From a virus, in the IMG/VR virus record IMGVR_UViG_3300028197_000094, positions 1-30,812 of that record: a DNA stretch of 30,812 bases. One strand, 5' to 3'. Below are positions 23,217-30,812 of this stretch, one piece after another. Below the pieces are notes generated by a model that searched no databases, was not told where the DNA came from, and saw only the letters and a list, made by a program, of their open reading frames with translations. Position 1 is the stretch's first letter; each line of letters starts with the position of its first letter. Position numbers and translations under genes: made by a program.

Positions 23217-24476
23217 TTAATAAGCTTCCCATTTTCTCTTAGTTGCACTTTCTAGACAAGCATACGCCAAAGTATCCACAATATCATCGTGGACACCAAC
23301 AGGAAAAGTTAGGAGTTCTCGTTCGACTTCTCCTACCCAATCTTCATCCTTAGGGAAGAACACTAGTCCTCTTTCCATCTTAGCAGACAAAGGAAGTGCT
23401 CGTGAACGCTTGTCTTTATCAGCTCTTAGTTCTTTAATCCTTAAGCCTTCTCTTCTTGCAAATTGTACTATAGCTAGCTGATAACCAGTCTTTTCAATAC
23501 CAACCCATTCTAAGTTATGTATACCGACCATCTTTTTAATTGCTGGAACAATATCCGGTGCTTCCATTCTCTGTCTATGCATATCTAACATAAACAACCT
23601 GTCTGATTCAAGATGATGACCGAATACTGATATTACTGTGTAATCTGCAGATTCTTTTGTTGAAGCAGCTAAGTCAACAGTTGCATACTTTACTAAATCT
23701 CTATTGATGTCAAACTTTTCTCCATCAGCCCAAAGAGAGCCAACTCCAAGTTTGTAATAGTTAAACCAGTGATTTCTGAACATTTGAGCACCTTCAGAGA
23801 TAAATTCAGCTAAATATTCTTGTGCAAAGACTAATTCTCCTAAGTCTTCTCTTGCTGATTCAACTTCTGCTGGGTCTATAATCGGATTAGCTACTGTTGG
23901 ATATTGAAATCTACCCCAATCATCTGCTTTTTCTGCCTTTTCCCATAGGTGATAAAACCAATTGTCCATTCCAATAGGGGTTGATATAAATAATGCAGAA
24001 CCTTTATTTTCAGTAAGAGTGGGTCTTAATACTTCTGTCCAAGTTTCTTCTCTAACAAAAGCTGCTTCATCCATAACTAGGAAGTTCAAACCTTCTCCAC
24101 GAAGTCTTTGAGGATTGTCAGCAGATTTAACAGCAATTGAGCCACCACCCGGAAATGTAACAGTCATATCTCCAACTTTTACTTCAACTCCGGATTCTTT
24201 AGGAAAAGCAGCAGCAGCTGCAACTACATCTCTCCAACCAACTCTTGCTATAGAAAAAGTAGGAGCTACCCACCATACACGGCCACCTTCAAGTGCTTGT
24301 TCTATACATAATTGAACTCCAAGTCTAGATTTGCCGAACCTACGACCAGCACACAGTATTTTCCACCTTGATGGGTCATCTTTTACTGTTTGTTGTGCTT
24401 CATGCAAATCTGGAAAGTCTATTGTATAAACTCTTTCTTTTGTGTCAGCTACATCTTCGAGTATATCTCTTGGCAT
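23217..24476 (-). CDS. terL: Terminase large subunit
   Basis: 419 residues. ATPase part: Walker A CAGRRFGKS at 42-50, Walker B LVMDEAAF with Asp-Glu 136-137, and the coupling motif FISTPIG near 163-169. Nuclease part: VDLAAS with Asp 268, VGIEKT with Glu 328, and HDDIVDTLAYA with Asp 397, 398 and 401, the RNase-H-like acidic cluster. It cuts concatemers and pumps DNA through the portal using ATP. It abuts the portal gene (stop and ATG adjacent). The small subunit is about 6 kb away at the right edge, an uncommon separation. The ATG lies 6 nt from a TGn-TACTAT box, possibly leaderless. Confidence 0.95.
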   Translation of the reverse strand: MPRDILEDVADTKERVYTIDFPDLHEAQQTVKDDPSRWKILCAGRRFGKSRLGVQLCIEQALEGGRVWWVAPTFSIARVGWRDVVAAAAAFPKESGVEVKVGDMTVTFPGGGSIAVKSADNPQRLRGEGLNFLVMDEAAFVREETWTEVLRPTLTENKGSALFISTPIGMDNWFYHLWEKAEKADDWGRFQYPTVANPIIDPAEVESAREDLGELVFAQEYLAEFISEGAQMFRNHWFNYYKLGVGSLWADGEKFDINRDLVKYATVDLAASTKESADYTVISVFGHHLESDRLFMLDMHRQRMEAPDIVPAIKKMVGIHNLEWVGIEKTGYQLAIVQFARREGLRIKELRADKDKRSRALPLSAKMERGLVFFPKDEDWVGEVERELLTFPVGVHDDIVDTLAYACLESATKRKWEAY

Positions 24477-27459: not shown

Positions 27460-27487
27460 ATTATAACCTATTTAAAGATATAGTCAA
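27460..27487 (-). promoter_or_regulatory. Promoter for the 26250-27427 operon
   Basis: TTGACT (27482-27487), a 16-bp spacer and a perfect TATAAT (27460-27465). It lies in the last codons of the 235-aa gene. Confidence 0.78.
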
Positions 27488-28175
27488 GAACTGAATCTAA
27501 ATATCCATTCTTTTGAGAACTAGTCTCATCAATTTCTACATTAAACATTGCCTTAGAGATAAGGTCTAAAGCCTTCTCATTTATTTCATCAATATCATCT
27601 CTTCTTTGAGGAAGAGAGGAATTTCCCATTCTCTCTTTTAAGCCGTTTAATTCTTTTACATACTGACTTACAGTTACTTCGTCTTGTTTAACACTAAAGT
27701 CAAAAGACAGGACGGCACTAATGACTGCTTTCACAGCTTGTTGAATTGCCATTGTCTCATCTTCAATATTCCATAAAGCAGATTGCACCATACTTTTTCT
27801 TTCATCTTCTGATATCTTAAAAATACTTCCGCTTCTATATAAATCTTGTATTCCTTTAGATAGAAATTTATTAGATTTAGTTTCTCTTCTAAAATGAGAA
27901 TCAGCATCTATTTCATTGTTTAGTCTTATAATTGAGTTAGCCATTGAAAGCTCTATCATCTCACTAAAAACATAAGGGTCTATAACAGAATCATCTTTTA
28001 ATGGTTTTACAACAAACATTTGGTCTTCTTCTTGAAGCATCCAAACATTTTTCTCTAACTCATCAAGAACTACTACTGCATAGTCTTTAGATTTTAAATT
28101 TGAATAGAAGTTAATGGCTTCCATAACAGTGTCACTTTTTTCTCCAGCAACATCGTTAATAAATTTCCACCTCAC
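27468..28175 (-). CDS. Helical protein of replication-like pair, unknown
   Basis: 235 residues, started by GTG at 28175, which overlaps the previous TGA (GTGA) and has GGAGAAGAAG upstream. The N-terminal 60 residues look alpha-beta (AVVVLDELEKNVWMLQEEDQ); the rest is helical. No known domain. Tight coupling to the helicase-loader-like gene suggests a partner role in DNA replication, but that is inference. Confidence 0.65.
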   Translation of the reverse strand: MRWKFINDVAGEKSDTVMEAINFYSNLKSKDYAVVVLDELEKNVWMLQEEDQMFVVKPLKDDSVIDPYVFSEMIELSMANSIIRLNNEIDADSHFRRETKSNKFLSKGIQDLYRSGSIFKISEDERKSMVQSALWNIEDETMAIQQAVKAVISAVLSFDFSVKQDEVTVSQYVKELNGLKERMGNSSLPQRRDDIDEINEKALDLISKAMFNVEIDETSSQKNGYLDSVLDYIFK

Positions 28176-28925: not shown

Positions 28926-28954
28926 AGGATACTATAAAAAGGAAGAGCTGTCAA
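28926..28954 (-). promoter_or_regulatory. Promoter for the 28172-28891 gene
   Basis: TTGACA (28949-28954), a 17-bp spacer and TATCCT (28926-28931; 4 of 6). It starts the two-gene operon that includes the loader-like gene. Confidence 0.7.
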
Positions 28955-29042: not shown

Positions 29043-29963
29043 TTATAACAAAGAATTTTTTCTGGGTCTCGTTTTTTGAGAATTAGTATGCTCAGTTCTT
29101 TTAGAAGCTTTCATATCATCAATCGTAACTTCTTTCCAAACTCTAAGATAGTTTCCAGAAGGTGAGGCATCTAGGAATTCTATTTTTCCATACTCTTTAG
29201 CCTTCGTCAATATTGTACTCATGATGTCAAAAGCCATCTTGGTTAAAACTTCCATTGGGTGATGGCGATGAACTCTTGTGTGCATGTTAACTTGTCCTAT
29301 ACCCTTGTGAGTATATTTATCAAAGACATCAATCATATGAGATATCTCTACACCGTAACCCGTGGGGTATTCTAAATCTTCTAAAACTCTTCTGAAGGAA
29401 GCATACTCTCCAGATATTGGCTGATAAATTTCTTGAACTTTTGGAAAGAATGCAGCGAGTAAAGGTCTGACAGTAAGCATGGTCACTCTTCCATACTCTC
29501 CTCGGTCATAGTAACTTTTAACATACTTTATATCTTTGTCTAGTAATAAAGGACCAACAAGTCCTCTAATAAATCTATCATCAAAATCTTCTATATCCGC
29601 ATCAACATAAACAATAATGTCTGCTGTTGTAACAAAAAGGCCTTTCCATAGATTCTCTCCTTTTCCAGTACTTTTATCCATATCTGGTTGTATATCGTCT
29701 GCACGGTAAAACTTTACATTATGTTGCGTTACAACTTCTTCTGTGTTATCTGTACTGTTGGAATCTATAACTACTACTTCATCTACTAAATCTCTAGGTA
29801 TATTGTCCAAAATCTTACCAATAGTGGATTCCTCATTCAATGTAGGTATAATAACTGCAATACTTAGCCCAGCTATATCTTTTTTAAGTTCAAGAACCCT
29901 CTCTAGGGGAAAATCATCTTCCCAATAGGTATGTGGTCTATATTGAAAGTCATTCCTATCCAT
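29043..29963 (-). CDS. gpgS: Glucosyl-3-phosphoglycerate synthase (GT81 family), phage-encoded
   Basis: 306 residues. GpgS transfers glucose from an NDP-glucose donor to 3-phosphoglycerate, the first step to glucosylglycerate and methylglucose polysaccharides. Seen in order: VIIPTLNEESTIG (nucleotide site) near 38-49, DSNSTDNT at 67-74, GKGENLWKG near 100-108, the metal-binding DAD at 121-123, TVRPLLAAFFP near 164-174, QPISGEYASFR at 181-191, PTGYGVEI at 200-207, and QVNMHTRVHRHHP near 224-236 with the His of the active site. These match, by recall, the mycobacterial GpgS pattern closely. It sits alone between the iteron region and the loader-like gene, with a -10 box 7 nt before the ATG. No GpgP phosphatase is adjacent. 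Compatible-solute production, or modification of virion or host glycans, are options. Confidence 0.87.
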   Translation of the reverse strand: MDRNDFQYRPHTYWEDDFPLERVLELKKDIAGLSIAVIIPTLNEESTIGKILDNIPRDLVDEVVVIDSNSTDNTEEVVTQHNVKFYRADDIQPDMDKSTGKGENLWKGLFVTTADIIVYVDADIEDFDDRFIRGLVGPLLLDKDIKYVKSYYDRGEYGRVTMLTVRPLLAAFFPKVQEIYQPISGEYASFRRVLEDLEYPTGYGVEISHMIDVFDKYTHKGIGQVNMHTRVHRHHPMEVLTKMAFDIMSTILTKAKEYGKIEFLDASPSGNYLRVWKEVTIDDMKASKRTEHTNSQKTRPRKNSLL

Positions 29964-29970
29964 ACTCTGT

Positions 29971-29976
29971 ATTATA
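29971..29976 (-). promoter_or_regulatory. -10 box for a possibly leaderless gpgS message
   Basis: A perfect TATAAT preceded by TG, 7 nt before the gpgS ATG at 29963. No Shine-Dalgarno is present and no -35 box is clear. A leaderless transcript is likely. Confidence 0.6.
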
Positions 29977-30053: not shown

Positions 30054-30139
30054 TAGTCTAACTGACGGACTACCGTAGTACGCCAAATAGACTGCCGTAG
30101 TCTAAATAACGGACTACCGTAGTCTAAGAGATGGACTAC
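30054..30139. repeat. 22-bp palindromic iterons
   Basis: GGACTACCGTAGTAC (30067), TAGACTGCCGTAGTCTA (30088), GGACTACCGTAGTCTA (30111) and half-site GGACTAC (30133). The GACT steps begin at 30068, 30090, 30112 and 30134, exactly 22 bp apart. Matching right half-sites fall at 30054, 30076, 30098 and 30120. Each unit is a near-perfect inverted repeat, GACTAC-C-GTAGTC, as for a dimeric DNA-binding protein arrayed along two helical turns. Confidence 0.85.
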
Positions 30140-30142
30140 ACA

Positions 30143-30186
30143 ACATATAGTGGTATATATACTGAACTACTACATATTGTGGTATA
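30143..30186. repeat. 15-bp direct repeat with extended -10-like core
   Basis: ACATATAGTGGTATA (30143-30157) and ACATATTGTGGTATA (30172-30186) differ at one base and lie 29 bp apart. Each contains TGG-TATA; the second reads TGG-TATACT, a rightward extended -10 candidate. It may be promoter or operator tissue beside the iterons. Confidence 0.65.
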
Positions 30187-30197
30187 CTAGATATAGA

Positions 30198-30233
30198 GCT
30201 AAAGTGATTCTTTTTCACAAAAGAACATTTAGC
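30198..30233. other. Long hairpin in the noncoding region
   Basis: GCTAAA, TG and TTCTTTT pair with AAAAGAA, CA and TTTAGC, giving 15 pairs with two single-base bulges and a TCAC loop. A U-run is not present on either side, though CCTCCTTTCT follows on the plus strand. Role unknown: terminator remnant, protein site or packaging signal. Confidence 0.6.
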
Positions 30234-30526
30234 CTCCTTTCTGTCGGTATGTACCCTAAAGCTTAATTGTTTTGGGGTCTCCAAAAAGGCTGGCCGGAAC
30301 GGTTAAACAACCCTTATCTATACCTTTAACCCGAGGTCGAAAAATTTTTTTGAGAAAAGCTCGGCATTATAACCTTCATACCCTTATTGATTATATATAT
30401 AGCTATAGAGAGTAGAACATTTGTTCGAATTACCAAATTTTACCAAAAGCTAGTAAAGGAAGAAAGACTATGACAGATGAGATTACAAAGGAATGCATTA
30501 GGAGAGCGGGGAAACCCTAATTCTCT

Positions 30527-30812
30527 CTATTTATCTCCAGAATACTTTATCTTGATATTGACAGGTTCATCATCATCTCCAGCCAAAGTTAACTTGTTAG
30601 GCTTAGACCATTTGTCGAAACTTCTCTCTAACCACCATGCTGCAGCTTGCCATTGTCCACGCTTTGCTGCTGTCTGAATTGAGTTGATAAACATACCCTC
30701 TGCTTCTGCTCTAGAACGCTCCATAGCGTTGCAAAAATCAGCGTATAAACTGTCTATTTCCTGCTCTCTATCTTCTTTACCTTTATCAAGCCAGCGATAC
30801 AAAGTTGTTTTA
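30527..30812 (-). CDS. terS: Terminase small subunit (5' end beyond the window)
   Basis: The frame stays open to the right edge (KTTLYRWLDKG), so the TTG at 30802 is an internal Leu codon and the start lies outside. 95 codons including the stop are present. TLYRWLDKGK looks like the end of a helix-turn-helix. Then RSRAEAEGMFINSIQTAAKR and GQWQAAAWWLERSFDKWSKP give the A-x-x-G-x-W-x-A-A-x-W-x-L-E-R pattern of small terminases. It recognises the packaging site and loads the large subunit. The stop codon borders the noncoding region. Large and small subunits are separated by about 6 kb here. Confidence 0.85.
   Translation of the reverse strand, partial: KTTLYRWLDKGKEDREQEIDSLYADFCNAMERSRAEAEGMFINSIQTAAKRGQWQAAAWWLERSFDKWSKPNKLTLAGDDDEPVNIKIKYSGDK

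Follow-up and report, generated by a model that had tools for sequence, protein, structure and literature searches.

A probable glucosyl-3-phosphoglycerate synthase gene in an uncultivated tailed phage

The protein encoded at 29043..29963 on the minus strand of the DNA analysed here (the window, 30,812 bases recorded from an uncultivated virus) belongs to the glucosyl-3-phosphoglycerate synthase (GpgS) family, with a match far beyond chance. The gene probably specifies a functional, retaining GpgS that the phage carries as auxiliary metabolic cargo and that would depend on a phosphatase supplied by the host. What is new is the accessory distribution of phage GpgS over two sites; the kind of enzyme is already known. 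GpgS makes glucosyl-3-phosphoglycerate, from which a phosphatase then yields glucosylglycerate; it is the first step to glucosylglycerate and, in mycobacteria, to methylglucose lipopolysaccharide.

The initial annotation had called an open reading frame at this place, and the frame proved to be real: it is intact, with 306 codons and an ATG start, and its orientation, unstated before, is added here. Since the contig encodes TerL, portal, prohead protease, major capsid, connector and tail proteins, the window is a tailed phage and the gpgS-like gene is phage-borne; it sits among phage genes, with TerS upstream and TerL, portal and capsid downstream. No record of the phage collection matched TerL at 60% identity or more, and the best of the matches listed reached about 27%, which places the window phage far from cultured phages.

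The downstream neighbour, gp28172, is 75% identical to its counterpart in the relative L002 and 69-75% identical to those in L005-L008; it gave no family match in Pfam, PHROGs and NCBIfam searches. The genes between gpgS and TerL were left without an assigned function by Pfam and PHROGs. The surroundings had been described as a repeat array, a leaderless-type promoter and replication-like genes: the array (22-bp period, upstream) and a TATAAT box, with no Shine-Dalgarno sequence before the gpgS ATG, were found, but no replication gene beside gpgS was recognised in Pfam and PHROGs searches of the window proteins. Another gene near gpgS (window 27468-28175) showed a weak, below-cut-off Pfam match to the ThsA macro domain and evolves fast (dN/dS 0.43 against L002).

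Table 1. Coordinates of the features in the window and the basis of each assignment (Mtb, M. tuberculosis GpgS).
Feature	Coordinates	Strand	Basis
gpgS-like gene, 306 aa, glucosyl-3-phosphoglycerate synthase (GT81-type, GT-A fold)	29043..29963	-	NF010496, PDB, Foldseek, dN/dS
V231-H232-R233-H234-H235; H232 = Mtb H258 (metal-side His); H234 at Mtb N260	29259..29273	-	alignment, PMC2581804
TGYGVEISH 201-209; Y203 = Mtb Y229 (uracil contact), E206 = Mtb E232	29337..29363	-	alignment, PMC2581804
QPISGEY 181-187; S184 = Mtb S210, PLSGE loop, sugar-donor pocket	29403..29423	-	alignment, PMC2581804
G158-R159-V160-T161; V160/T161 = Mtb V186/T187, 3-phosphoglycerate carboxylate	29481..29492	-	alignment, PMC2581804
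D121-A122-D123, DXD metal/nucleotide motif (Mtb D134-S135-D136)	29595..29603	-	alignment, PMC2581804
GKGENLW 100-106; K101 = Mtb K114, Asp-Lys-Glu network	29646..29666	-	alignment, PMC2581804
TATAAT -10-like box, 7 nt before gpgS ATG, leaderless-type	29971..29976	-	slot comparison
Direct repeat array, 22-bp period, four copies, TerS intergenic region	30054..30145		repeat search; relatives
Terminase small subunit (TerS), N-terminus past contig edge; gpgS upstream neighbour	30527..30811	-	phrog_4102 1e-22
gp28172, 239 aa, no function assigned, gpgS downstream neighbour, conserved in phage group	28172..28891	-	identity to relatives
Terminase large subunit (TerL), marks contig as phage	23217..24476	-	PF03237/PF17289, phrog_2

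Assignment to the GpgS family

The GT81 signatures on which the initial annotation relied are all there (DAD 121-123, GKGENLW 100-106, QPISGEY 181-187, PTGYGVEI 200-207). In the HMM search that it had proposed, the window protein matched the NCBIfam equivalog model of GpgS (NF010496) with 284.2 bits (1e-84) and passed the curated cut-off of 262, as did its three closest viral relatives; the NCBIfam families that followed scored 53 and 49 bits only. The solved GpgS structures of M. tuberculosis and M. hassiacum matched at about 1e-49 in the PDB search, followed by R. xylanophilus MpgS at 2e-41 and dolichol-phosphate mannose synthase at 2e-8.

GT2 enzymes with lipid or DNA as substrate, which the initial annotation had named as the competing assignment, scored far lower than the 284 bits of GpgS: such families reached at most 49 bits in NCBIfam, the general GT2 domain, alone in exceeding its Pfam cut-off, reached 57 bits, and a GtrB-type family of PHROGs (phrog_841) reached 47 bits (4e-12). 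GtrB acts on a membrane lipid. The window protein resembles these phage enzymes in the N-terminal half of the GT-A fold, but the match covers residues 35-155 only and GtrB-type enzymes have no GpgS acceptor half.

The predicted model had a mean pLDDT of 64, was built from an alignment of seven rows, and is of low confidence in the acceptor half. A Foldseek search with it placed only GpgS and R. xylanophilus MpgS at ranks 1-41, with E at or below 1e-18; mannosylglycerate synthase came next (E 8e-10). VIA gave GpgS or MpgS for the top 31 (Z 19-22), again with mannosylglycerate synthase next (Z about 15). The latter enzyme, known from Rhodothermus marinus (GT78), has a related fold and a common catalytic network, and differs from the window protein by this distance in the fold lists. 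BFVD held no viral protein of the GpgS family, the best hit being at 2e-8 and 15% identity.

Two variable sites for gpgS

The gene order TerS, GpgS, gp28172 is shared with L002, whose GpgS is 76% identical to that of the window. The copies of L016 and L023 are 56% identical to it; in L016 GpgS adjoins TerS on the same strand, and in L023 it is cut by the contig edge. The slot behind TerS carries GpgS in the window, L002 and L016, and is without it in G003 (L006), L005, L007 and L008, relatives that were found with gp28172 and in which a protein search detected no GpgS. In G003/L006, L007 and L008 the TerS intergenic region, as far as each contig covers it, and the 22-bp repeat array, which thus also occurs in relatives without gpgS, are followed by other small genes, and L005 has roughly 230 bp from the end of the intergenic region with gp28172 directly after them. 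Because the GpgS-less relatives keep the TerS intergenic region with other cargo or none, GpgS occupies a variable slot.

On the TerS side, the intergenic region (window 30054-30260) contains a nearly invariant block, GGGTACATACCGACAGAAAGGAGGCTAAATG, and then a possible 9-codon ORF. The region is conserved whether or not a phage has gpgS and is a candidate packaging, replication or regulatory site.

In the window, L002, L016, G003 and L008 the first ATG of the slot is preceded by a TANNAT sequence that ends 5-7 nt ahead of it, against a background of 5% of the window ATGs; these five slots are related to each other and do not count as independent. As the box is also found in slots without GpgS, the candidate promoter belongs to the slot: the promoter-like box is a slot feature whatever the cargo and is not specific to GpgS. 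Another promoter-like site, TTGACA-17-TATCCT, lies before gp28172 (28954..28926), but the scan for sigma-70 promoters and terminators gave no more sites overall than shuffles. The Rfam search gave no match.

A shorter GpgS of 248 aa, about 45% identical, is encoded in the early region of L011, L017 and L012. Its N-terminal ~36 residues are absent and its NF010496 scores, 245 and 234, are just below the cut-off of 262. The early-region slot is filled by GpgS in G008, G009 and G010 and is empty in G003. G008 and G010 share with G003 a long run of early genes (about 25-81% identity), and their GpgS is inserted in the opposite orientation between two genes that are ~240 bp apart in G003. G008 also has TerS, with no GpgS found in its vicinity. 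The filling of the TerS slot and of the early-region slot in related phages indicates one phage group with GpgS at two alternative places. Together with gpgS-less relatives, these two exchangeable sites provide a natural comparison for the role of the gene.

Selection, exchange and phylogeny

All viral GpgS copies compared are under purifying selection. The dN/dS was 0.11 for window-L002, 0.15 for L016-L023 and 0.05 for L011-L012, pairs in which dS is near saturation, and 0.06 for L011-L017, which differ very little. Between the window and L002, dS was 1.45 for GpgS and 1.21 for gp28172, versus 0.22 for the capsid genes; values so far above that of the capsid suggest that this genome end, with GpgS and gp28172, has been swapped between phages.

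In a tree with seven cellular copies (from three plasmid-collection records and the solved structures), a thin cellular sampling in which the root was not placed, the viral copies formed one group with branch support of 100/99. This tree, without outgroups, replaced one with distant outgroups that had failed to resolve. A scan of genome contigs for cellular relatives returned just one unrelated GT2. One candidate, L047, was rejected as a chance antisense match, since its frame, with MIGRVTELVAHP, lies opposite a 487-aa frame on an unrelated contig.

Active site and predicted function

Residue roles were taken from the structure paper of M. tuberculosis GpgS (PMC2581804) and mapped to the window protein by alignments. 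With the actinobacterial GpgS of M. tuberculosis and M. hassiacum (GT81) the window protein has in common the GT-A fold, the DXD motif, the Asp-Lys-Glu network, the UDP and carboxylate site residues and the C-terminal RP motif, but identity is only about 35-40%, the acceptor-side loop is far shorter, Asn260 is replaced by His, the gene is phage-borne and a phosphatase was not found on the contig. The Asp134-Lys114-Glu232 network and the DXD motif (D134/D136) are present as D121, K101, E206 and D121/D123; the UDP/glucose selectivity residues Ser81, Tyr229 and Ser210 as S68, Y203 and S184; and the acceptor carboxylate site Val186/Thr187 as V160/T161. Glu54, His258 and Met269 are likewise kept, as E44, H232 and M243, and Leu209 of the donor pocket is conservatively changed to Ile183. 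Judged by these residues, the window protein appears to have the donor, metal and carboxylate sites expected of a GpgS.

The enzyme would move glucose from UDP-glucose (or another NDP-glucose) to the 2-hydroxyl of D-3-phosphoglycerate, and the product, glucosyl-3-phosphoglycerate, would be converted to glucosylglycerate by a host phosphatase. A GpgP-type phosphatase (PF00300) was found on none of nine related records, all possibly partial, so the host would need to supply it. The gene would be carried as cargo in the slot behind the TerS intergenic region, and the slot cargo is probably transcribed from the -10 box right before the start codon. The benefit may be a nitrogen-free compatible solute, the diversion of 3-phosphoglycerate, or a polysaccharide or other glycan primed by glucosylglycerate; a change of envelope polysaccharide, which the initial annotation gave as an alternative, would be another possibility. 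The sequences suggest that phages with gpgS steer host sugar metabolism to glucosylglycerate in infection. The reading as an auxiliary metabolic gene, proposed in the initial annotation, is supported by the accessory distribution, the swappable sites and the purifying selection. Beyond gene, family, residues, selection, location and distribution, we infer activity, substrates with the acceptor among them, timing, reliance on a host phosphatase, host and benefit. Counted against a functional GpgS as auxiliary cargo are the lack of a phosphatase hit on the nine records, the short acceptor loop, the change of Asn260 to His, the poor model of the acceptor half and the absence of WhiB.

In M. tuberculosis GpgS the loop 167-184 is disordered and thought to help acceptor binding (PMC2581804); in the window protein few residues are left of the matching stretch, before GRVT, mycobacterial GpgS being longer there by 9 to 13 residues, and H234 stands at the place of Asn260. 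With the truncated, below-cut-off form of the early region and with a PF11397-type glycosyltransferase also encoded by the relatives G006 and G008, these changes could mean a GpgS-derived enzyme with a changed acceptor: another small phospho- or carboxylate acceptor, modified phage DNA or a glycan. We regard this as unlikely, as the residues for the 3-phosphoglycerate carboxylate are kept, and with them the GRVT motif (GRVS in L002), as the window-type copies exceed the equivalog cut-off, and as the searches of window proteins turned up no gene for DNA-base modification.

An MpgS-like or relaxed enzyme, preferring GDP-mannose and making mannosyl-3-phosphoglycerate as R. xylanophilus MpgS/GpgS (3f1y, 3o3p) can, is less probable still. 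That enzyme is alike in fold and layout, having the top VIA Z (21.9, tied with GpgS at 21.4), and shares His at the place of Asn260, but by sequence GpgS is ahead in the PDB search (171.8 versus 145.6 bits). The window protein moreover keeps Ser81 and Ser210, which, as argued in PMC2581804, keep guanine and mannose out of M. tuberculosis GpgS; in R. xylanophilus both positions are Ala. A host gene picked up by chance, of no benefit to the phage and heading for loss, would fit the patchy distribution, but is very improbable: besides the window, six viral contigs retain the frame (in one it runs into the contig edge), every pair tested shows purifying selection, and a single phage group has the gene at two separate sites.

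For the preferred reading, a functional GpgS as auxiliary cargo, a stronger form can be put forward tentatively: the phage group may repeatedly gain or relocate GpgS, at two sites and in two lengths, since glucosylglycerate or a derivative strongly helps infection, for instance as an osmolyte free of nitrogen while DNA accumulates, or because the shortened loop admits a new acceptor. This is doubtful at present; if true, glucosylglycerate metabolism would for the first time be seen under viral control.

Occurrence elsewhere and other observations

INPHARED phages showed no GpgS: the window protein gave a single partial match (26.5%), and the short form gave partial matches of 34-36% in Dickeya and Erwinia jumbo phages. 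A literature search returned no report of a viral GpgS, which is weak evidence of novelty as most subscription journals were outside its scope. A viral GpgS would connect infection with the metabolism of compatible solutes and of 3-phosphoglycerate, a connection unseen in the phage collection and literature searched. As host clues, WhiB, a mark of actinophages, was searched for and not found, and the tRNA search gave nothing.

Several other features were observed on the relatives' contigs. A second glycosyltransferase, of the GlcNAc type PF11397, is encoded at L032:15465-16343, and the protein of L040:5832-6566 is 48% identical to it. In contig G001 (L037:6931-8170) TerL is split into two frames around a run of undetermined letters (X residues in the translation), which probably stems from an error in sequencing or assembly. 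In the relative G007 (L035:16849-18496) the genes for a sulfotransferase, a small P-loop kinase and a cytidylyltransferase-like protein follow one another.
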